Source: Acidimicrobiaceae bacterium (GTDB lineage Bacteria; Actinomycetota; Acidimicrobiia; Acidimicrobiales; JAUTXP01). Taken from it: a stretch of DNA of 45,388 nt. A model generated the notes under the pieces. It saw only the letters and a list, made by a program, of their open reading frames with translations, was not told where the DNA came from and did no database searches. Position numbers and translations under genes: made by a program. The stretch is taken from positions 85,485-130,872 of the forward strand of contig JAUTXP010000051.1 of assembly GCA_030837965.1 (NCBI GenBank), written 5' to 3'. Numbering within the stretch: position 1 is the stretch's first letter; every line of letters starts with the position of its first letter. This document shows positions 23,463 through 44,948 of the stretch, one piece after another.

Positions 23463-23797
23463 GGGTCACCCTCCGAGTCGCTTGTGCTGAGTTCTACTCG
23501 AAGTTCGCCTTCGAAGCACCGCAGTCACGCGGGGAACGAGCCCCACAGTCAAAGTGCGCCGACTTCCTTCGACGCGCCTGGTCGCCACCCATACGCCTGA
23601 CGGCTACGTCCCATCGCATGGCGTAACAAGTACGTCCGAAGCCGGACTGCAAGAGGTCACGACAGCAGTTGGGCAGAGAGGCGGGTACGTCAAGCGGGAC
23701 ACTGAAGGTGCACGGATCACCTCGCCGCCGCTGGCTGACCCGAACGGGCGCCGCCCAGGGCGCACGCGCGGGGGTGTTCGAACAATGACACTATCGG
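23463..23797. other. Gap between island and tRNA-Glu
   Basis: These 335 bp hold no convincing gene. A plus-strand frame crosses into the tRNA gene and is discounted. GGGGGTGTTCGAACA (23771-23785), close to the tRNA 3' end, shares GGGTGTTCG with the inverse of the island repeat. This is where an integration boundary would be expected. Confidence 0.4.
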
Positions 23798-23870
23798 CAG
23801 TCCCAACGGGATTCGAACCCGTGTCTCAACCTTGAGAGGGTTGTGTCCTAGGCCTCTAGACGATGGGACC
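23798..23870 (-). tRNA. tRNA-Glu (CTC)
   Basis: The 73-nt cloverleaf is read on the minus strand. The acceptor stem GGTCCCA pairs with TGGGACT (first pair G-U). The D arm has CTAGAGGCCTAGGAC. The anticodon loop is CTCTCAA with anticodon CTC, and the T arm is ACGGG TTCGAAT CCCGT. The discriminator is G and CCA is not encoded. The opening GTCCCATCGTCTAG resembles bacterial tRNA-Glu. Its 3' end faces the accessory island, a common site for integration of mobile DNA. Confidence 0.95.
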
Positions 23871-25457: not shown

Positions 25458-25754
25458 GATGCTCCCAACTGTCGTGGCGGTTCCGCCTGCCGCCTGGCAG
25501 AGAGCGCCCCGCCGCGGAACATCGGAGCGGTCAGGCGAGCGGAACGGACGACTTCGGGCCGGACACGGGCACGGTAAGACGAGGGTCAGCCGCAAGCAAC
25601 GAAAACCCCCTCATCGGGGGGTCGATTTCTCGACGAGCGACGGGCACGACTGCGTCGACGAACGACCTCGACCGACTCGACCGGCTCGGTCGGGCTGCGC
25701 CTCCCGCGCCCTCCACAGCACGCCGGCTGCGGAGAACGCGAGGAGCGATCAGCG
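25458..25754. other. Gap between SGNH hydrolase gene and tRNA-Gln
   Basis: About 300 bp without a gene. It contains the terminator at 25602-25625 and presumably the promoter of the minus-strand SGNH gene. No other signal is seen. Confidence 0.5.
25602..25625 (-). terminator. Intrinsic terminator after tRNA-Gln
   Basis: On the minus strand the sequence reads ACCCCCCGATGAGGGGGTTTT: a five- to six-pair G-C stem with a GATGA loop, followed by a short T run. It lies about 130 nt past the 3' end of tRNA-Gln and would end that transcript. Confidence 0.65.
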
Positions 25755-25826
25755 CTCGGGGGGGAGGACTCGAACCCCCAATGACAGGGCCAGAACCTGT
25801 TGTGTTGCCGATTACACCACCCCCGA
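25755..25826 (-). tRNA. tRNA-Gln (CTG)
   Basis: A 72-nt cloverleaf on the minus strand. The acceptor stem TCGGGGG pairs with CCCCCGA. The D arm contains GGTGTAATCGGCAACAC, the anticodon stem ACAGG/CCTGT holds loop TTCTGGC with anticodon CTG, and the T arm is GGGGG TTCGAGT CCTCC with one G-U pair. The discriminator is G and CCA is not encoded. It lies between gltX/YdcF and a terminator, two kilobases from tRNA-Glu. Confidence 0.95.
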
Positions 25827-26531: not shown

Positions 26532-27941
26532 CTACGGCGCCAGCCGGGCGCGGGCTGCGACCAACCGGGACAGCACTCGCTCCCGGCCGAGCAAGGCCAG
26601 CGACTCGAATAGAGGCGGGCCCACCGCCTTGCCGGTGACGGCCACGCGGATGGGCGCCTGGGCCTTGGCCAGCCCCAGGCCGCGGCGTTCGGCGATGGCC
26701 CCGGTGGCCTCGTGCAGCGCGGCTGCGTCCCACGCGCACGACCCGTAGTCGGACAGCGCGTCCTCCAGGATGGGCCCGGCCACATCGGCCCGCTTGGCCA
26801 TGTGCTTCTCCCAGTCCCGCTCGTCGAGCACAGGCGGCTCGACGAAGAAGAAGTCGACCATGCCGGGCACGTCGGCCAGGGTGTGGGCCCGCTCCTGCAC
26901 CAGCGGGGCAATGGCCTCGAACACCGACCGCTCCCACGCCAGACCGGCCTTGTCCAAGAAGGGCGCCGACTGCTCCACGAACGCGGACGGCGACAGCGCG
27001 GCGATGTAGTGCTGGTTGAAGTGCAGCAGCTTCTTCTGGTCGAAGAAGGCAGGCGACGAGTTCACATCCTCCAGCCGGAACTCGGCCGTCAACTCCTCCA
27101 TGCTGAGGAACTCGCGGTCGCCGCCCGGGCCCCATCCCAACAGGGCCAGGTAGTTGACCATGGCCTCGGGCAGGTAGCCCTCGTCGCGGTACAGCTCAAG
27201 CTCCACCTTGTCCTCGGGCCTGCGCTTGGAGAGCTTGCGCCGCTTCTCGTTGACCAGCACCGGCAGGTGGGCGAACACCGGCTCGGGCAGGCCGCCGCCG
27301 CCGAGGGCCCGCCACAACAACAGGTACTTGGGCGTGTTGGGCAGATGCTCCTCGCCCCGCACCACATGGGTGACCCGGTTGTCGACGTCGTCCACCACGT
27401 TGGCCAGTATGAACAGCGCGCCTCCATTGCCCCGGACCAACGGGAAGTCCTCGATGGACGAGTGCTCGAAGGTGGGCTCGCCTCGCACCAGATCGTGCAC
27501 CACGACGGCGCCGTCGTCGGGCACGCGGAACCGCAGGGCCCGGCCCGGTCCCTGGGTCAAACCGCGGTCCCGGCAGAAGCGGTCGTATCCCTTGTTCTGA
27601 TCACCGGTGCGGGCCACCACGTCGTCGCGCGTGCAGTCGCAGTAGTAGGCCAGGCCGTCGGCGAACAGCTTCCCGGCCGCGTCGGCATACAGCTCGGTGC
27701 GCTCCGACTGTCGGTACTGCTCGTCCCAGTCCAGCCCCAGCCAACGCAGCGAGTCGTAGATGCCGTCGACCCACTCCTCCCGGTTGCGCTCGGCGTCGGT
27801 GTCCTCGATGCGCAGGATGAAGGTTCCGCCGGTGTGCCGAGCGACCAGCCAGTTGTAGAGGGCAGAACGGGCGCCGCCCACATGCAAAAAACCAGTAGGC
27901 GAAGGGGAGAACCGCAGCCGCGGCGCGGCCGCGTCCGTCAT
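26532..27941 (-). CDS. gltX: Glutamate-tRNA ligase
   Basis: 469 residues, the usual length of bacterial GluRS. The class I signatures are PSPTGFLHVGGARSALYNW (HIGH-type, about 13-31) and the KMSKR-type RRKLSKRRPED (about 236-246). The zinc-type insertion is represented by YYCDCTRDDV and RFCRDRG. LRIEDTDAERN and VVRGEEHLPNTPK bind glutamate and the tRNA acceptor end. The enzyme charges tRNA-Glu; in bacteria lacking GlnRS it also mischarges tRNA-Gln for later amidation by GatCAB. Both matching tRNA genes lie within 4 kb. The start ATG overlaps the stop of the acyl-CoA dehydrogenase gene (27938-27941). Confidence 0.96.
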   Translation of the reverse strand: MTDAAAPRLRFSPSPTGFLHVGGARSALYNWLVARHTGGTFILRIEDTDAERNREEWVDGIYDSLRWLGLDWDEQYRQSERTELYADAAGKLFADGLAYYCDCTRDDVVARTGDQNKGYDRFCRDRGLTQGPGRALRFRVPDDGAVVVHDLVRGEPTFEHSSIEDFPLVRGNGGALFILANVVDDVDNRVTHVVRGEEHLPNTPKYLLLWRALGGGGLPEPVFAHLPVLVNEKRRKLSKRRPEDKVELELYRDEGYLPEAMVNYLALLGWGPGGDREFLSMEELTAEFRLEDVNSSPAFFDQKKLLHFNQHYIAALSPSAFVEQSAPFLDKAGLAWERSVFEAIAPLVQERAHTLADVPGMVDFFFVEPPVLDERDWEKHMAKRADVAGPILEDALSDYGSCAWDAAALHEATGAIAERRGLGLAKAQAPIRVAVTGKAVGPPLFESLALLGRERVLSRLVAARARLAP

Positions 27942-29554: not shown

Positions 29555-30069
29555 ACCGCCAACAGTGAGCGCCAGTCCCTCGCCAGCGCGGCGCGCACGT
29601 CGGCCGGAGACAGCCGCAGCGTCGACTCCGGCACTCGATCGACGATCCCGCGCTGGTCCCAGTAGTGGTGAGCCGCGCCTTGGAACAGCGGCTTGCGGAA
29701 CGCGGTCACCTCCGCTGGTGCGTCGTCCAAGAATCCGAAGACGGCAAAGGCGTGTTCGAGGTCGAACACGACCGGCGCCCGCCCGTACAGCGAAGCCCGT
29801 TTCAGGGCCACCCCAAGGCAGCCCGCGACTGCATCCTCGGCGTGCTCGCCGTCGGCCAGCCGCAGCCTGCCGCCCTCGACGAAGGTCCGAGCCAGCTTGA
29901 GGGCGTAGCCCTGGTCGGGACCAGGGGTGCCGAAGCGCTTGCCCGCAGGTCGGGTCGAGCCGTGCATGTCGGCCGGGCGATCGGCAACCCATCGGTCGGG
30001 TGCGGGCATTTGCTCGGTGGCGCGCACCCGGTCGTCGGCATCAAGAGGGACGTACTCAGGCTGTGCCAT
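29551..30069 (-). CDS. Conserved hypothetical protein downstream of cimA
   Basis: 172 residues, no signal peptide or membrane segment. It opens MAQPEYVPLDADDRVRATEQ followed by MPAPDRWVADRPADM and TPGPDQGYALKLAR, then a mixed alpha/beta region with GVALKRASLYGRAPVVFDLE, and ends with a helical LSPADVRAALARDWRSLL. I know similar actinobacterial sequences only as hypothetical proteins and cannot suggest a function. ATG 30069 lies 14 bp inside the end of cimA, the same size of overlap as between ilvE and cimA, so it is translated from the leuB-ilvE-cimA mRNA. Confidence 0.75.
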   Translation of the reverse strand: MAQPEYVPLDADDRVRATEQMPAPDRWVADRPADMHGSTRPAGKRFGTPGPDQGYALKLARTFVEGGRLRLADGEHAEDAVAGCLGVALKRASLYGRAPVVFDLEHAFAVFGFLDDAPAEVTAFRKPLFQGAAHHYWDQRGIVDRVPESTLRLSPADVRAALARDWRSLLAV

Positions 30070-31693
30070 CAGGCCCTTTCGGTTCGGCGAGTGCGTGGCC
30101 GCCGGTGTCACCGGCGGCGTCGTCGTCGTGGAGCAGCAGGCCGAAGACGATACTGTCGAACAGGGCCTGCCAGGACGCCTCGATGATGTTCTCGGACACG
30201 CCGATGGTCGACCAGCTCCGCTCGCCGTCCGTGGAGTCGAGCAGCACGCGCGTCACCGCCCCCGTGCCCTTGGCCGTGTCCAGCACGCGCACCCGGTAGT
30301 CGGTCAGGTGGATGGACGACAGGGCCGGATAGAACTGCTCGATGGTGCTGCGCAGGGCCTGGTCCAAGGCGTTTACTGGGCCGTTGCCCTCGGCCACCGC
30401 GATGCGCCGCTCGCCGCCCACGTGGACCTTGATCACGGCCTCGGTCACGAAGCGGCCGTCCTCGCGGTGCTCGCTCGACGCCTGGAACGACTCGAGCCGG
30501 AAGTAGGGCTGGCTCCAGCCTGTCGCCCGCCGCATCAACAACTCCAGCGACGCGTCGGCCGCCTCGAAGTGATAGCCGCGGTGCTCCAACTCCTTGAGCC
30601 GGTCGAGGACCGAGCCCAAGGCGTCTCCGTCCAACGCCAGTCCCAGCTCCTCGGCCTTGAGTTGCAAGGTCGACTTGCCGGACAGCTCGCTGACCACGAA
30701 CCGGGTGCCGTTGCCGACCAGGTCGGGGTTGATGTGCTCGTACGCGTCGCGGGCCCGGAGGATGGCCGACGTGTGCAGCCCGGCCTTGTGGGCGAAGGCG
30801 GAAGGCCCCACGAAGGGCGCCTGCGGATCGAGCGTGAGGTTGACCAGCTCGGCGATGTGGTGGGACACGGCCGTGATCCGTTCCAGCCGGTCTTCAGGAA
30901 TGGTTCTTATTCTCATTTTGAGGGCGAGGTCGGGGATGATCGTGCACAAGTTGGCGTTCCCGGTCCGCTCGCCGTACCCGTTGATGCAACCCTGCACCTG
31001 CTTGGCCCCCATGCGCACGCCCATCAGCGCGTTGGCCACGGCCACGCCCCCGTCGTCGTGGAAATGGACGCCCACGTCCACGCCGTCGAACTGGGGAACG
31101 ACCGCGCCCATCACCTCTTCTACCTCGTGCGGCAGGGTGCCGCCGTTGGTGTCGCACAGCACGAGCGCGTCGGCACCCGCCTCGGCGGCGGCGGCCAGCA
31201 CCTGCAAGGAGAACTCGGGGTTGCGCTTGTATCCGTCGAAGAAGTGCTCGGCGTCGAGGAACACGCGTAGCCCGGCGGCGCGGAGGAACTCGACGGAGTC
31301 GCGCACCATGGACACGGCCTCGTCCAGCGACGTCCGCAGTGCCTCGGTGACGTGGTAGTCCCATGACTTGGCCACGATGCAGACGGTGGACGTATTGGCC
31401 TTGACCAGATGGCGCAAGGTGTCGTCGTCGTCGGCCCGCACGCCCGCCCTGCGGGTGGAGCCGAAGGCCACCAGCGTGGCCGTCGAGAGGGAAAGCTCGC
31501 TCGGTGCCCGGTCGAAGAACTCGATGTCCTTCGGGTTGGCGCCGGGCCAGCCCCCCTCGATGTAGTGCACGCCCAGGTGGTCCAACTGCTCGGCCACGCG
31601 CAGCTTGTCCTCGACGGTGAGCGACAGGCCCTCGCGCTGGCTGCCGTCGCGCAGGGTCGTGTCGTAGATCTCTACCGCATCAGGTACCGACAT
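30056..31693 (-). CDS. cimA: Citramalate synthase
   Basis: 545 residues of the DRE-TIM metallolyase family, CimA type (TIGR00977). It condenses pyruvate and acetyl-CoA to citramalate, the threonine-independent entry to isoleucine (EC 2.3.3.21). VEIYDTTLRDGSQREG (about 7-22) supplies the DRE motif, and VGVHFHDDGG holds the two metal-binding His. The long form with FVGPSAFAHKAGLH and the C-terminal regulatory domain (EAVIKVHVGGERRIAVAEGN) distinguishes it from LeuA. Around 30897-30920 the codons become AAA ATG AGA ATA AGA ACC ATT, unlike the rest of this high-GC gene. ATG 31693 overlaps ilvE by 14 bp. Confidence 0.95.
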   Translation of the reverse strand: MSVPDAVEIYDTTLRDGSQREGLSLTVEDKLRVAEQLDHLGVHYIEGGWPGANPKDIEFFDRAPSELSLSTATLVAFGSTRRAGVRADDDDTLRHLVKANTSTVCIVAKSWDYHVTEALRTSLDEAVSMVRDSVEFLRAAGLRVFLDAEHFFDGYKRNPEFSLQVLAAAAEAGADALVLCDTNGGTLPHEVEEVMGAVVPQFDGVDVGVHFHDDGGVAVANALMGVRMGAKQVQGCINGYGERTGNANLCTIIPDLALKMRIRTIPEDRLERITAVSHHIAELVNLTLDPQAPFVGPSAFAHKAGLHTSAILRARDAYEHINPDLVGNGTRFVVSELSGKSTLQLKAEELGLALDGDALGSVLDRLKELEHRGYHFEAADASLELLMRRATGWSQPYFRLESFQASSEHREDGRFVTEAVIKVHVGGERRIAVAEGNGPVNALDQALRSTIEQFYPALSSIHLTDYRVRVLDTAKGTGAVTRVLLDSTDGERSWSTIGVSENIIEASWQALFDSIVFGLLLHDDDAAGDTGGHALAEPKGPDGTA

Positions 31694-32600
31694 GCTCGAG
31701 CCAGTCCTTGTACCGGTCGACCTCGCCCTTCACCGTGGCGAAGAACGTCTCCTGGATCTTGCGGGTGATGGGCCCGGGCTCGCCGATCTCCCTGTCGTCC
31801 ACCGACCGGATGGGCACCACCTCGGCCGCCGTCCCCGAGAGGAATGCCTCTTCGCAGACGTAGAGGTCGGACCGCAAGATGTTGCCGGTCTGCACCTCCA
31901 CACCGAGGTCCCGGGCGATGGCGAAGATGGACTTCTGGGTGATGCCTTCGAGCGCGCCTGCGGAGACGGGCGGAGTGATGATGCGGCCGTCCTTCACCAC
32001 GAAGATGTTCTCGCCCGTGCACTCGCTGATGTAGCCCTGCGGCGATAGCAGCACGGCCTCGTCGTAGCCGGCCTTGAGGGCCTCGATCTTGGCCAGTGAC
32101 GAGTTGATGTACATGCCCGTGGCCTTGACCGCGGGCGGGATGGCATTGGGGTCGTGGCGCTGCCACGAGCTGACCTTGAGCCGCACTCCGTGCTCGATGC
32201 CCTCGTCGCCCAGGTACGTGCCCCATGGCCACACGGCGATGGACACGTTGATCGGACAGGGCATGGGGTTGAGCCCCATCTCGCCATAACCCGTGTAGAT
32301 GATGGGCCGGATGTAGCACGAGTCGATCTTGTTGACCCGCACCGTCTCCTTGGTCGCCTCCACGATCTGGTCGAAGGAGAAGGGCACGTCGATCAACAGC
32401 ATCTTGGCCGAGTTGAACAGGCGCTCGATGTGATCGGACAGCCGGAACACGGCTGGGCCCTGAGCCGTGGCGTAGGCCCGGATGCCCTCGAACACGCCGT
32501 ACCCGTAGTGCAACGCGTGCGTGAGGATGTGGACGTTGGCCTCGCCCCACGGGACGAGTTCGCCGTCCATCCAAATGCGCTCGGTCGGGGTGATGGGCAT
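31680..32600 (-). CDS. ilvE: Branched-chain amino acid aminotransferase
   Basis: 306 residues, a class IV PLP aminotransferase that makes leucine, isoleucine and valine from the 2-oxo acids and glutamate. IWMDGELVPWGEANVHILTH and YGYGVFEGIRAY are the N-terminal signature. The PLP Lys is in AVKATGMYINSS (about residue 160). DEAVLLSPQGYISECTGENI is the phosphate-binding and class IV pattern region, and FLSGTAAEVVPI contacts the substrate. ATG 32600 lies 14 nt after the leuB stop, with GGAGG upstream. It forms an operon with leuB and cimA, so its expression should follow the attenuator before leuB. Confidence 0.95.
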   Translation of the reverse strand: MPITPTERIWMDGELVPWGEANVHILTHALHYGYGVFEGIRAYATAQGPAVFRLSDHIERLFNSAKMLLIDVPFSFDQIVEATKETVRVNKIDSCYIRPIIYTGYGEMGLNPMPCPINVSIAVWPWGTYLGDEGIEHGVRLKVSSWQRHDPNAIPPAVKATGMYINSSLAKIEALKAGYDEAVLLSPQGYISECTGENIFVVKDGRIITPPVSAGALEGITQKSIFAIARDLGVEVQTGNILRSDLYVCEEAFLSGTAAEVVPIRSVDDREIGEPGPITRKIQETFFATVKGEVDRYKDWLEHVGT

Positions 32601-32614
32601 TGTGATTCCTCCCT

Positions 32615-33589
32615 TTACAGGCGCGACGCCACCGCGTCGCCGAGTTCTGAAGTGGTGCCCGACATCGGGATGACGTCGGTCATGGCTTTCTCGATGCGGG
32701 CGGCGGCATCGGCCTCGCCCAAAAAGTCCAGCATCATGGCGGCCGAGCGGACGGCGGCCAGCGGGTTGGCCCGGCCGGTGCCGACGATGTCGGGGGCCGA
32801 GCCGTGGACAGGCTCGAAGAGGGAGGGGCCAGTCCGGGCCGGGTTGAGGTTTGCCGAAGCGGCCAGCCCGATGCCGCCTGCTACCGCGCCGGCCAGGTCG
32901 GTGAGGATGTCGCCGAACAGGTTGTCCGTGACCACCACGTCGTAGCGCTGGGGCGACTCGACCAGGTAGATGCAGGCCGCGTCGACGTGGTTGTAGGCCG
33001 TCTCGACGTCTGGATAGTCGGCCGCCACCTCGTTGAGGGTGCGCTGCCACAGGTCGCCGGCGAAGGTGAGCACATTGGTCTTGTGGACCAGCGTCAAGTG
33101 GCGGCGGGGTCGGGACTGGGCCAGGTCGAAGGCGAAGCGGATGCACCGCTCCACGCCCATGCGCGTGTTGACCGATCCTTGGGTGGCGACCTCGTTGGGC
33201 GTGCCCTTGCGCAGCACCCCGCCCTCGCCCACATACGGGCCTTCGGTGTTCTCGCGCACGACGAGGCAGTCGATGGGGCCGGACGTGAACGGGCGCAGGT
33301 TGATGTAGAGGTCGAGCTCGAAGCGCAGCTTGAGCAGCAGGCCCCGCTCCAACACGCCGGGCGGCACGTCCGGGGTGCCGACCGCGCCGAGGAGGATGGC
33401 GTCGAAGCCGCGCAGCTCGGCCAAGGTCTCGTCGGGCAGGACGTCGCCGGTGCGCAGGTAGCGGGCGCCGCCCAGGTCGTAGTGCACCGTGTCGATGTCG
33501 ACGCCCGCGGCGCGCACGACCCTCAAGGCCTCGGCCAGCACCTCGGGCCCGATGCCGTCGCCGGCGATGACTGCGATCCTGTGACTCAC
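32615..33589 (-). CDS. leuB: 3-isopropylmalate dehydrogenase
   Basis: 324 residues, slightly shorter than many LeuB (about 350). It oxidises and decarboxylates 3-isopropylmalate, and in the citramalate route 3-methylmalate. [13 protein letters not shown] opens the protein. LRPF and [12 protein letters not shown] are the substrate loop, and [16 protein letters not shown] (about 220-235) carries the metal-binding Asp residues. [14 protein letters not shown] is the NAD-binding loop. GTG 33589 is chosen because it starts directly at [11 protein letters not shown] and has GGGAG upstream. It is the first gene after an attenuator, with ilvE 14 nt downstream. Confidence 0.95.
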
Positions 33590-33608: not shown

Positions 33609-33634
33609 GAAAAACCGCCCACAACGTGGACGGT
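33609..33634 (-). terminator. Attenuator terminator before leuB
   Basis: In the minus-strand transcript ACCGTCCAC pairs with GTGGGCGGT (one G-U) around a GTT loop and is followed at once by TTTTT. This is an intrinsic terminator lying between a tiny leader ORF and leuB, 20 nt before the leuB start, so read-through decides expression of leuB-ilvE-cimA. Confidence 0.85.
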
Positions 33635-33639
33635 CGAGA

Positions 33640-33665
33640 GCGCACACCGGCGGGGCCGTGTGCGC
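33640..33665 (-). promoter_or_regulatory. Pause-type hairpin of the leuB leader
   Basis: GCGCACAC (33665-33658) pairs with GTGTGCGC (33647-33640), extended by a few G-C pairs around a bulge. It overlaps the stop codon of the leader ORF and immediately precedes the terminator hairpin, the usual order in amino-acid attenuators. Confidence 0.7.
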
Positions 33666-33697
33666 TACGGAATGACGGCTACCTGCTGGGTGGACAT
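33665..33697 (-). CDS. Leader peptide of the leuB-ilvE-cimA operon
   Basis: A 10-residue frame MSTQQVAVIP ends at a TAG that overlaps the first hairpin of the attenuator. It contains two Val and one Ile codon in a row of four (GTA GCC GTC ATT), two of them rare in this genome, so ribosome stalling for valine or isoleucine could control read-through. It has no leucine codon. This is inferred from position and codons. Confidence 0.6.
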   Translation of the reverse strand: MSTQQVAVIP

Positions 33698-33707
33698 GAT
33701 GAGGCGG

Positions 33708-33713
33708 AGTGTA
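33708..33713 (-). promoter_or_regulatory. -10 element of the leuB leader transcript
   Basis: TACACT on the minus strand lies 10 nt before the leader ATG. No clear -35 is visible; the upstream DNA is very C-rich. Confidence 0.4.
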
Positions 33714-33787
33714 CCGGGGCGGGGGCGGGCCGCGCTACCGAGCCTGGACGGCGGGCTCAGGAAACCCTTGCCGCCGGGGCTCGGTTG

Positions 33788-33819
33788 TGATATCTCAAGA
33801 TAGAGAGCTTGCAATATCA
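33788..33819 (+). promoter_or_regulatory. AT-rich promoter/operator candidate before the S8 protease gene
   Basis: TGATAT (33788-33793) and ATATCA (33814-33819) form inverted arms in a distinctly AT-rich stretch, about 85 bp upstream of ATG 33904. In this genome such an AT-rich patch stands out and is the most likely promoter region of the gene. Confidence 0.35.
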
Positions 33820-33903
33820 GCCTGGGGAAACGCGGTCGCACCCGTCTCTTGTCGTCGTCGTCGCCGGCCATTCGCCGCGCCCCGCCACTCGCAGGGGGAA
33901 GCA

Positions 33904-35919
33904 ATGCCGAAGTCCGCGACGCGTCCGCGCGCCCGTCTGTACATGCTCGCCGCCGGGCTGGCCCTCGCCTTGGTGCTCGGCGTGGTGTCGCCTGTGGCCC
34001 AGCGGCTGAAGCCCGCCGACGCGGTGGACGGCGATGTGCACGGCCACATCAACACCGCGGTGGGACCGATGATCACGGCCTTTTGCACCACCGGCGGCCA
34101 GGGCGGGGTGGGGTGGCAGGTCGATGGCGTGCGGCCCGGCTGGCTCTTCTCCGTCACCGCGGATCATCCCGCGGCCACTGTCGATTTCGACGTGACCTTC
34201 TTCAACGGCGCCCCGTGCGGCGGTGTCCGTCTGAAGACGCACTACAACCGGGCAGGCGACGAGTACGCCGTCGTGCCGCCGAACTCGACCTCCGCGCTGG
34301 TCACGCTGAACACCGGCGCCAACGCGGACTTCACCTACCGCGAGCTACAGCAACTGGCCGATGTCGGCCCGAGCGGCCACCACTCCCCCACCGTCGTCGC
34401 CATCGTCGAGCCGAACGGCTTCAATCCGTATCACGTGGACTTCCTCGGCAGCGAGCACCCGTGGAACAAAGACGCCGACTCGCAAAACGACATCGACTTC
34501 AGTGCCGACCCCGGGGGTTACGTAGCGGGCTATCCGGCAGGGGTCACCGCCCTCCCGATTCATCTGTCATCCGACCCGACCACCATGGTGGAGTCCCTGC
34601 GGTCACAGGACACCGATGCATGGAACTCGTTCACGACCTCGGATACCGACCACCCCGCCCACATCTTCCGCTTCAAGGACACCAAGATCATCGGCGCGGT
34701 CCGCTTCGGCGCGTCCTTCTGGGCGGACAACAACGCGCATGGGACCCGCTCCGCCGCGGTCGCCGCGGGCAACATCCATGGCACGTGCCCCGAGTGCCTC
34801 GTCGTCCTCGTCGCCGGCACCAGCGGCTTCAAGTGGGCGACCCAGCAGAGCTGGATCGACGTGGTGTCGAACTCGTACGAGTCCCGATGGAACAACCTCC
34901 CCCCAGTGAATGCCGAAGGCGCCAGCTTCACCGTGCGGGACAACCTCGGCAACGACGGCACCATCGCCGAGGCCAGTCGACAGGCAGCCATTGCCGGACA
35001 GTCGGTGGTATGGGCCGGAGGGAATGGCGTGCTCGACTCGTGGGACGCGCCGCAGACGACGTACTCGTCGTCCATGAAGGGCCCGGACTGGGTCGTCACC
35101 GTCGGCGCGGGCAACGACGACGGGCAGGACTACCTCGGGTCGGGCAAGCCGGTCGACATCTCAGGGCCGGGCAACGGATACCCCTCGACGGGCGGCGATG
35201 CCGACTTCCGCAAGCAGACCGTGGCCGGCACCGGAACGCACTCGGGCACGTCCAACGCCACCCCCGTCGTCGCAGGGACGCTGGCGAAGATCATCCAGAT
35301 GGGCCGGGACCTGCTGGGCGACGAAACCGGGGGGCACAGCGGCGGCGACGTGGCCCGCGCCACCTGGGCCAGACGACGAGCCCAGACCGCGCAGGGCCCG
35401 AACTGGTGCGGCGCGGCCAATCCCACGTGCCCCCTCGATGACGGCGTGCTCAGCCGCAAGGAGGTCGAGCAGACGCTGTTCGAGAACGTGTTGCCGTGGC
35501 CGGTGCGGGTGCCGACCATCCTGAACGGGCCGCTGAACTCGCCAGGAGGCGGTCCGGCCGGCGCGCCGATTGCGACCACTCCGTACGGCTACTACTACGT
35601 CGGCCATGGCGTGGTGGGCGGGCTCCAAGACCCCAGCCGGCTCCCGCTCGTGAACCTGCACTTGTGGCAGGCCCTCCAAGGCGACGTAGCGCCGTATCCC
35701 CGGCCCGCAGCCGAGCACAACTGGATGACGGTGGACTCCAAGTGCAGGCAGCACCTATGGCCTGGCCAGTGGGCGGACGGCTATTACCACGGCCAAGCGT
35801 TGCAACTCGACCCTGTGGCCGACGCGCTGGCCATCGCGTGGAACGACTGGTGCCAACAGGTGCCGGAAGGCGCCTTCGACCAACTGCCCGACGCGCCGAC
35901 CACCGCCGGTTCGCACTAA
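33904..35919 (+). CDS. Secreted subtilisin-like (S8) serine peptidase
   Basis: 671 residues with a signal peptide (about 1-35, LYMLAAGLALALVLGVV). The S8 core starts at VVAIVEPNGFNPYHVDF, where the catalytic Asp of the usual VAIVDTG motif is replaced by Glu. The His is in NNAHGTRSAAVAAG (His 279) and the Ser in SGTSNATPVVAGTLA (Ser 450), with the oxyanion Asn probably in WAGGNG. A C-terminal extension of about 200 residues with several Cys and Trp follows. It should be secreted; activity with a Glu in the triad is uncertain. ATG 33904 has the ribosome site AGGGGGAAG. Confidence 0.85.
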   Translation: MPKSATRPRARLYMLAAGLALALVLGVVSPVAQRLKPADAVDGDVHGHINTAVGPMITAFCTTGGQGGVGWQVDGVRPGWLFSVTADHPAATVDFDVTFFNGAPCGGVRLKTHYNRAGDEYAVVPPNSTSALVTLNTGANADFTYRELQQLADVGPSGHHSPTVVAIVEPNGFNPYHVDFLGSEHPWNKDADSQNDIDFSADPGGYVAGYPAGVTALPIHLSSDPTTMVESLRSQDTDAWNSFTTSDTDHPAHIFRFKDTKIIGAVRFGASFWADNNAHGTRSAAVAAGNIHGTCPECLVVLVAGTSGFKWATQQSWIDVVSNSYESRWNNLPPVNAEGASFTVRDNLGNDGTIAEASRQAAIAGQSVVWAGGNGVLDSWDAPQTTYSSSMKGPDWVVTVGAGNDDGQDYLGSGKPVDISGPGNGYPSTGGDADFRKQTVAGTGTHSGTSNATPVVAGTLAKIIQMGRDLLGDETGGHSGGDVARATWARRRAQTAQGPNWCGAANPTCPLDDGVLSRKEVEQTLFENVLPWPVRVPTILNGPLNSPGGGPAGAPIATTPYGYYYVGHGVVGGLQDPSRLPLVNLHLWQALQGDVAPYPRPAAEHNWMTVDSKCRQHLWPGQWADGYYHGQALQLDPVADALAIAWNDWCQQVPEGAFDQLPDAPTTAGSH

Positions 35920-43273: not shown

Positions 43274-44824
43274 TCAGGGCGTGATGGCGGTCATGCGGCC
43301 ACGGGCCTCGTTGCGGGCCCGCACCTGCACCACCTTGTTGACGGCGTTGAGGTAGGCCCTGGCGCTGGCCTCCACCACGTCGGTGGACACCCCTCGGCCC
43401 GTCACCTTCACGCCCTCGACCTCGAGCTGCACGATGACATCGCCGAGGGCGTCGACCCCGCCAGTCACCGACGACACGTTGAAATCGGTGAGTCGTCCGT
43501 CCACACCAGTGGCCGCTTTGATGGCCTTGCAGGCCGCGTCGATCATGCCGTCGCCCTCGGCGATGGCCTCGGCCTTCTCGCCGTTGCGCACGACCACCAC
43601 CTTGGCCTGAGGGACGGCGACGGTGCCGCCTCGGACCTCGAGGCTCTCGAAGACGAACTCGACGGCCCTGGCCCCGCCGATCTCCTCGGCCACGATGGCC
43701 TCCAAGTCGGCCTCGGTGAGCTGCACCTTGCGATCGGCCAACTCCTTGAAGCGGGTGAAGGCAGCGTTGAGCGCGTCGCCCGTCACGTTGAGGCCCATCT
43801 TCTCCAACGTGTCCTTGAAGGCATGACGACCCGAGTGCTTGCCCAGCACGATCTGACTGCCGGTCTGGCCCACGTCGGCCGCGTCGATGATCTCGTACGT
43901 GCTGCGCTCGGCCAGCACGCCGTGTTGATGGATGCCGGACTCGTGGGCGAACGCGTTGCGGCCCACGACGGCCTTGTTGTACTGGACCGGATAGCCGGTG
44001 AGGCGGCTGACGAGCCTGCTGGTGCGGGCCAGCTCCTCGGTGCGCACGCCGACCTCGATGCCGGGAAACTGGTCGCCGCGGATCCTGACCGCCATCACCA
44101 CTTCTTCGAGGGCGGCATTGCCGGCCCGCTCCCCCAGCCCGTTGACGCATACCTCCACCTGCCGGGCACCCGCCTGCACGCCGGCGAGCGAGTTGGCCGT
44201 GGCCAGCCCCAAGTCGTTGTGGCAGTGGGTCGACGTGATGTAGTCGCCCTTCACCTCGCGCCGGATGTACTGGATCAGCGCGCCGAAGTCCCACGGGATG
44301 CCGTAGCCGACGGTGTCGGGGATGTTGAGGGTCGTGGCGCCCGCCTCGACCGCGGCCTGGAGGACTTCCAACATGAAGTCGAGCGGCGTGCGGGTGGCGT
44401 CCTGGGGGCTGAACTCGACGTCGTCGGTGTGCTCGCGGGCCCGGGCCACGCCTTGGCGCGTCTCGGCGATCACCTGCTCTGGCGTCATCTTCAGCATGTG
44501 CTCCATGTGCGACGGGCTGGTGGAGATGAACACGTGGATGCGGCCCCGCTCGGCCTGCTTGAGCGCGTCCCAACAGCGATCGACGTCGGCGATGTGGGTG
44601 CGCGACAGCCCGGCGATGACCGGGCCCTGCACCGACTGGGCGATGGCCTCGACGGCCTCGAAGTCGCCTTGGCTGGCCACGGGGAAGCCGGCCTCGATGT
44701 AGTCGACACCCAGGCGCGCGAGCTGTTCGGCGATCTCGAGCTTCTCGGCCACGTCGAGCGAGATGCCCGGCGACTGCACGCCGTCTCGCAGGGTGGTGTC
44801 GAAGATGATCAGTCGCTCGGCCAT
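43274..44824 (-). CDS. leuA: 2-isopropylmalate synthase
   Basis: 516 residues, the standard-length (type 1) bacterial LeuA rather than the longer mycobacterial form. It condenses 2-oxoisovalerate with acetyl-CoA to start leucine synthesis. [16 protein letters not shown] (about 8-23) holds the DRE motif, GLSRTH and [14 protein letters not shown] (about 202-215) the metal-binding His pair, and [19 protein letters not shown] the subdomain that closes over the substrate. The C-terminal regulatory domain ([19 protein letters not shown]) senses leucine. ATG 44824 has AAGGAA upstream. A leader ORF and terminator lie directly before it. Confidence 0.96.
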
Positions 44825-44849
44825 TGGTTCGGTTCCTTTCGAGGGAAAC

Positions 44850-44880
44850 AAAAAACCCCCTGGCCGAAGGCGCAGGAGGC
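44850..44880 (-). terminator. Attenuator terminator before leuA
   Basis: In the minus-strand transcript CCTCCTG pairs with CAGGGGG (one G-U), with an inner GC/GC clamp around CTTCG, and is followed by TTTTTT. The hairpin ends 25 nt before the leuA start and lies after the leader ORF, so it is an attenuator rather than the end of another gene. Confidence 0.85.
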
Positions 44881-44884
44881 GAAA

Positions 44885-44911
44885 GACGAGTCCCGGGTGC
44901 GGGAACTCGCC
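44885..44911 (-). promoter_or_regulatory. Pause-type hairpin of the leuA leader
   Basis: GGCGAGTTCCCG pairs with CGGGACTCGTC around CACC, with one bulged base. It begins two bases after the stop of the leader ORF and precedes the terminator, as expected for the first hairpin of an attenuator. Confidence 0.7.
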
Positions 44912-44912
44912 G

Positions 44913-44948
44913 CTAGGTAAGGAGCAGGATGCTGGTCAGGTGCGGCAT
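44913..44948 (-). CDS. Leucine-rich leader peptide of leuA
   Basis: An 11-residue frame, MPHLTSILLLT, with four Leu codons, three of them consecutive (CTG CTC CTT), preceded by Ile. It is followed by a hairpin and an intrinsic terminator before leuA. Slow translation at the Leu run when charged tRNA-Leu is scarce would favour read-through into leuA, the classical attenuation scheme. There is no clear ribosome site; a transcript starting close to the ATG is likely. Confidence 0.8.
   Translation of the reverse strand: MPHLTSILLLT

Follow-up and report, generated by a model that had tools for sequence, protein, structure and literature searches.

What does a reading frame of only ten codons sense in front of the leuB-ilvE-cimA operon, and how would it act on the genes that follow? 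The question arises in the window, by which we mean the whole stretch of 45,388 nucleotides that was analysed, since an attenuator with Val and Ile codons and without Leu codons had been proposed there from the letters alone. Such a short ORF does precede the first gene of the operon, as expected of an attenuator, and reads MSTQQVAVIP* on the minus strand (33697-33665), conserved in relatives. Positions 33609-33697 span this leader ORF, a first hairpin (stem 1) and a terminator hairpin with its T-run; the features of the locus are listed below.

33708-33713, minus strand: -10-like hexamer TACACT, ten bases 5' of the leader ATG (sequence)
33697-33665, minus strand: leader peptide ORF MSTQQVAVIP* (sequence and conservation in relatives)
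33640-33665, minus strand: stem 1, GCGCACACGG...CCGGTGTGCGC, its first base being the G of the stop codon (fold and covariation)
33609-33635, minus strand: predicted intrinsic terminator, GACCGTCCAC gtt GTGGGCGG and then TTTTTC (fold and conservation)
32615-33589, minus strand: leuB, 3-isopropylmalate dehydrogenase, GTG start (NF002898, 496.5 bits, cut-off 393)
31680-32600, minus strand: ilvE, branched-chain aminotransferase, 306 aa (reading frame; named from the label of the original prediction and gene order)
30056-31693, minus strand: cimA, citramalate synthase (TIGR00977, 705.8 bits, cut-off 450)

The cimA frame overlaps the end of ilvE, and for leuB a start at 33622 was rejected in favour of the better GTG start at 33589. 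LeuB acts in the citramalate route to isoleucine. Citramalate was rejected as the sole isoleucine route of this organism, as its genome also holds a threonine ammonia-lyase family match (TIGR01127, G000:C25:12071-13195), so that two isoleucine routes may coexist; the same family is matched in 40 of the 59 genomes searched (E 1e-30), this one among them. Clustered on the minus strand of the window we also observe tRNA-Glu(CTC) at 23796-23870, tRNA-Gln(CTG) at 25754-25826 and a glutamate-tRNA ligase gene at 26532-27941.

The leader codons read ATG TCC ACC CAG CAG GTA GCC GTC ATT CCG TAG (33697-33665, minus strand), placing control codons for products of the operon in frame near the end of the ORF. 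Across 93 leuB leaders, Val, Ile and Leu make up 84% of the codons at positions -5 to -2 in frame 0; the alternative frames give 7% and 1%. TAG serves as stop codon in 84 of these leaders, possibly because its G is at the same time the first base of stem 1. Of the 93 leaders, 89 have a TACACT-like hexamer close to the start; their start codons were picked partly on the -10 score, which renders the spacing between promoter and ATG partly circular; no good -35 element was found at the window copy of this promoter. Transcription probably starts within a few bases of the ATG, making the leader transcript leaderless or near-leaderless judging from the hexamer. Between the leader promoter and greA lies a subtilase-like gene on the plus strand of the window (33709-35919, PF00082), which looks like an insertion in this lineage, as greA appears by eye to be directly upstream in many relatives.

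Stem 1 (minus strand 33665-33640, GCGCACACGGCCCCGCCGGTGTGCGC) is followed by a short linker and the terminator hairpin with its T-run (minus strand 33635-33609, GACCGTCCACGTTGTGGGCGGTTTTTC). Taken alone, the fold of this single sequence is only moderately unusual, with a z score of -2.44 against 200 dinucleotide shuffles, three of which fold equally well. The strong evidence for the reality of the leader is comparative. Among 90 aligned leuB leaders, 97.7% of the stem 1 cells are paired, with changes on both sides at all 10 of the 10 model pairs, and 99.5% of the terminator cells are paired, with 5 of 9 pairs invariant; as the alignment (A3) was fitted to the structure of the covariance model R2, these counts lean toward that structure, and slid controls on the same alignment gave 32-62% paired cells. 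The terminator motif CCGxCC is invariant in 90/90 leaders. A U-G wobble in the terminator (33609-33635; A3 columns 90/127) is retained in 75/90, though C-G or U-A would pair better. Stem 1 together with a hairpin carrying a T-run was located in 88 of 93 leuB leaders. In all four leader sets (leuB, cimA, ilvB and leuA) the start of stem 1 lies 0-4 bases from where the stop codon begins, and the gap between stem 1 and terminator measures 0-8 bases, mostly 2-4 in the leuB set.

The leader thus carries a predicted and conserved intrinsic terminator ahead of the first gene. Hairpins in this position could instead hide the leuB ribosome-binding site until the leader ribosome opens it, a form of translational control that has been reported for mycobacterial cysteine genes with a leader ORF (as cited in PMC13236596) and proposed for leuA in Actinobacteria (PMC1262725). 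The T-run behind the second hairpin argues against such a mechanism, as does the distance from leader stop to gene start, which varies between 61 and 237 bases among relatives, and we regard it as very unlikely here.

How widely the element occurs was assessed with the covariance model R2, built from 16 of 32 rows and used for all model results; a previous model (R1) was dropped for its poor stem 1, caused by several rows that MAFFT had misaligned. R2 scores the window copy, itself part of the model, at 83 bits, and matches 229 of 395 genomes of the class, leuB, cimA and ilvB leaders mixed. Among 296 genomes drawn from the phylum it matches 23, five of them outside the class, including a leuB-ilvE-cimA operon whose leader ends SQVVIIR (G458), two ilvB leaders (G454 and G635) and a leuA leader ending QNLLLT (G473). 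The pattern of the leader's 3' half has a single occurrence in the window and none in 100 shuffles; in its exact form it was found in 75 stretches from named genomes, the majority labelled as Acidimicrobiia, Acidimicrobiales, Acidimicrobiaceae, Microthrix or just actinobacteria. A set of 90 loci from the class was hand-picked from the listed R2 matches, mostly one per genus, and is not a random sample.

Within the order we compared 57 leuB loci with upstream DNA, the own locus included, after leaving out two of 59, one with leuB in pieces (G036) and one with only a distant homologue (G048). A leader precedes leuB in 34 of the 57, of which 31 were found by script, one by eye (L040) and two via R2 (L054 and L032, the latter known only as a 3' half at a contig edge). 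Among the other 23, one leader lies between leuB and ilvE-cimA (L015 in G040, 2523-2618), which ends LVILLV*, contains Leu and is the single ilvE-first case, and two stand directly before cimA (G006 and G004); there leuB is apart from cimA, and the element stays with cimA and carries Ile runs. No leader was seen near leuB by script, eye or R2 in the remaining 20 relatives, 15 of which have cimA adjacent. Relatives without any leader ORF would have spoken against the original prediction, which outlasts this comparison with the element before leuB in 34 of 57 loci and before cimA or ilvE-cimA in three more. cimA is adjacent in 30 of 32 loci with leader and in 18 of 25 without (p 0.03), as counted before two of the leaders were added.

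If the leader senses amino acids on behalf of the operon, its codons should follow the genes behind it, and they do: the control codons at -5 to -2 track operon content, as shown for 124 loci in which a leader precedes leuB, ilvE or cimA. The 86 leaders of leuB-ilvE-cimA operons contain Val in 79, Ile in 85 and Leu in one, so that Leu codons in relatives, which would have undermined the proposal, are nearly absent. The three leuB-cimA leaders that lack ilvE all have Ile, and none has Val or Leu; the 28 leaders of cimA alone have Ile in 28, Val in two and Leu in two; the one ilvE-cimA leader has all three residues. Six further leaders are cut by contig ends or have no cimA in reach: three before leuB-ilvE with cimA unseen (Val 3, Ile 3, Leu 1) and three before leuB with no further operon gene seen (Val 3, Ile 3, Leu 0). 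The Leu-bearing leuB-ilvE leader (L010, SISVLH) comes from G028, a genome that gave no cimA at the threshold applied.

Overall, Val occurs at these positions in 83 of 90 leaders with ilvE seen behind them and in 2 of 31 without. The p value of 5e-19 for Val, like that of 1e-29 for Leu, assumes independent rows; since the rows are not independent, both overstate the case. On a tree of CimA from 97 of the 124 loci, those with more than 250 CimA residues in the stretch, the presence of ilvE behind the leader changed at least four times; three independent pairs fall on supported branches, and Val changed the same way in a mean of 2.8 of 3 (sign test p 0.25). We rejected the idea that Val codons signal LeuB: none of the three leuB-cimA leaders that lack ilvE (from two genera, judging by group code) has Val, and the one ilvE-cimA leader with no leuB has it. 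The original argument, that ilvE and cimA serve isoleucine and valine, gains support from these data, since Val is lost where no ilvE lies behind the leader and Ile is kept wherever cimA is.

Were the RNA read by a trans-acting factor, riboswitch or T-box, with the peptide of secondary importance, these operon-linked codon changes would be left unexplained. Conservation of CCGxCC (90/90) and of the U-G wobble (75/90) goes beyond what pairing needs and would suit such a reader. Rfam, T-box included, gave no match at gathering score for the window leader or nine leader loci, and a permissive search gave a single match at chance level. We consider this reading highly improbable.

The same plan recurs in front of other branched-chain operons. 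In the window, a leuA leader with the same two hairpins occupies 44849-44948.

44913-44948, minus strand: leuA leader ORF MPHLTSILLLT* (sequence)
44885-44911, minus strand: leuA stem 1 (sequence)
44849-44880, minus strand: predicted leuA terminator (sequence)
43274-44824, minus strand: leuA, 2-isopropylmalate synthase (PF00682 and PF08502)

With its Leu run, the leuA leader (44948-44913) shows the predicted contrast to the leuB leader, which has no Leu. Leu-run leaders with endings such as LLLT are found in 23 of 25 leuA upstream regions of relatives; L106 and L107 have none, and L104 was kept although the script misread its frame, as its visible leader ends LLLT. The original prediction of two leaders holds in that the leuA and leuB leaders differ in codons, but the genome has three, the additional one preceding ilvB outside the window (L061, G000:C67:9871-9969) and encoding MSAHRILVGT* with all three branched-chain residues. 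The three leaders of this genome therefore end LTSILLLT (leuA), RILVGT (ilvB) and QVAVIP (leuB). Among 30 ilvB regions of relatives, L143 has no leader, L126 was left out, and the doubtful L138 and L130 were kept. Leu is found within the last six codons of 23/23 leuA, 33/36 ilvB, 10/93 leuB and 2/21 cimA leaders; the 36 ilvB leaders have Val in 36 and Ile in 21 cases, and the 23 leuA leaders have Val in four and Ile in two. From this codon content we infer that the leaders would tune their operons separately.

Not only the amino acids but also their synonymous codons are selective. With expected counts derived from leuB and cimA usage in the same loci, the leuB leaders use GTA 61 times (5.1 expected), GTC 63 (65.4), GTG 9 (57.3) and GTT 3 (8.2) for Val, and ATT 87 (18.2) and ATC 104 (166.5) for Ile. 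The cimA leaders have 24 ATT codons against 7.5 expected, GTA accounts for 46 of 66 Val codons in the ilvB leaders, and CTT for 30 of 72 Leu codons in the leuA leaders, at position -2 in 20 of 23. In the leuB, ilvE, cimA and leuA genes of the window GTA is just 6 of 166 Val codons and ATT 2 of 93 Ile codons. We rejected AT content as an explanation of the GTA excess, since the equally AT-rich GTT occurs 3 times versus 61. The strong bias towards GTA, ATT and CTT agrees with a theory in which attenuator sensitivity requires particular synonymous codons (PMC1183508); GUA is described as a control codon in the LVVI stretch of the Mycobacterium tuberculosis ilvB1 attenuator (PMC13236596), and CUU and GUA in the Corynebacterium glutamicum ilvBNC leader (PMC11857589). 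Such rare-codon choice would have no reason in the absence of translation and, together with the frame-specific Val/Ile/Leu signal and the operon-linked codon change, speaks against an accidental ORF in DNA conserved merely as promoter and unregulated terminator. The shortness of ten codons and the moderately unusual single-sequence fold would suit an accident, which we nevertheless deem exceedingly improbable.

In-frame control codons, a terminator and a stem covered by the terminating ribosome make ribosome-mediated attenuation the best reading, and it is likely that the leader acts as a transcription attenuator sensing charged tRNA-Val and tRNA-Ile for leuB-ilvE-cimA. Transcription would start at or beside the leader ATG, and a ribosome would translate the ten leader codons. 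With both tRNAs charged it would reach the UAG, and RNA polymerase would be expected to halt at the predicted terminator; with either short, the codon choice suggests that the ribosome would stall at GTA, GTC or ATT near the stop and the polymerase would read through. The Ile codons would answer to cimA and LeuB in the citramalate route, the Val codons to ilvE. Stem 1, whose 5' arm starts in the stop codon, may read the position of the stalled ribosome: in the leuB set its calculated probability is 0.98, 0.75, 0.35 and 0.00 with the A site at -5, -3, -2 and the stop, respectively.

Of what the word attenuator implies, leader ORF, control codons and predicted terminator are in place, but a classical antiterminator was not found: neither duplex energies, partition functions, folds of partial RNA nor two drawn helices revealed a covariation-supported one in the leader sets. 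Duplex energies were calculated between the region past the ribosome edge and the 5' arm of the terminator for several edges, partition functions with the ribosome footprint blocked, and folds for RNA that runs up to segment 3. The freed region is no more complementary to the terminator 5' arm than shuffled sequences are in the leuB set (mean z about 0), and less so in the ilvB set (positive z). The same duplex test recovers two of three Escherichia coli controls (thr, z -4.6; leu, z -2.4) and misses his (z -0.4), so it can overlook real antiterminators and leaves room for a short one of the kind proposed for C. glutamicum. The equilibrium probability of the terminator was discarded as a test, being 0.99-1.00 in all three E. 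coli controls as well.

A fully classical version of ribosome-mediated attenuation, with three segments and a short or imperfect helix between the 3' arm of stem 1 and the 5' arm of the terminator, has to be weighed at this point. The segments of the leuB set are pairwise alike (GCGCAC/GUGCGC/GUCCAC/GUGGGC), and the five pairs of a first drawn helix form in 86.7% of cells; shuffles, however, reach 86.5%, the 90-row alignment shows no covariation, and in 36 of 90 sequences one particular pair fails to form. A second drawn helix, CGGY with ACCG, likewise lacks covariation in this alignment. Before segment 4 is made, segment 3 of the leuB set is 15-28% paired with the ribosome stalled and 38% with it at the stop, opposite to the classical order, whereas in E. 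coli thr and leu 9/10 and 6/9 bases are paired in the stalled state and none once the ribosome is past the control codons. That the ilvB set is less complementary than shuffled sequences also counts against it; in its favour, the E. coli his control fails the test too, and the antiterminator proposed for C. glutamicum overlaps the terminator by three bases only (PMC11857589). We hold the three-segment version to be possible yet doubtful. Equally tentative is an attenuator of two hairpins without antiterminator, in which the base of stem 1 contains the stop codon and stem 1, reporting the ribosome position, would sit at the polymerase exit, 2-4 bases ahead of the terminator hairpin, and directly set termination; with control codons swapped, this one design might serve leuA (Leu), ilvB (Leu/Val/Ile), leuB-ilvE-cimA (Val/Ile) and cimA (Ile) across the class.

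Several known attenuators resemble the leuB leader. The experimentally tested attenuation of M. tuberculosis ilvB1 comes from the same phylum and shares branched-chain control codons (LVVI, GUA) and an intrinsic terminator (PMC13236596). Its ilvB1NC leader, reported with 166 nt and a drawn antiterminator, belongs to a different operon, whereas the leader before leuB-ilvE-cimA has Val and Ile without Leu, is predicted to be near-leaderless and gave no antiterminator. C. glutamicum ilvBNC and the ilvB-II motif share a leaderless ORF with CUU and GUA before a branched-chain operon and a terminator as the most conserved part (PMC11857589, PMC10272879), but the C. glutamicum model has three hairpins, with the antiterminator overlapping the terminator by three bases, and another gene set (PMC11857589). 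Rfam found no sequence-family match between ilvB-II and the leuB leader, nor one of the leaders tested to the ilvB-OMG motif, a branched-chain-rich leader ORF upstream of ilvB in several phyla (PMC10272879). The E. coli leu, thr and his attenuators likewise combine end-product control codons with an intrinsic terminator; thr and leu have strong 2:3 antiterminators, whereas in the leuB leader the control codons lie next to the stop codon, within which stem 1 begins. The LEU element of Actinobacteria is also a leader with branched-chain codons before a leucine gene in this phylum, but is described with a Leu run and a pseudoknot whose base stem reaches the leuA Shine-Dalgarno site (PMC1262725), in contrast to the two plain hairpins with a T-run predicted here; MSTQQVAVIP contains no Leu at all, and Leu occurs at -5 to -2 in 1 of 86 leuB-ilvE-cimA leaders. 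In the open-access literature we found no printed report of this leader.

If the antiterminator is truly missing, the textbook view of a stalled ribosome preventing termination would need a second version. The leuB and cimA leaders represent a natural experiment, in which genes are lost or moved and the control codons change along, and this link between codons and operon ties the sensed amino acid to a set of enzymes without bench work. They also provide a large comparative set for testing the synonymous-codon theory of attenuators.
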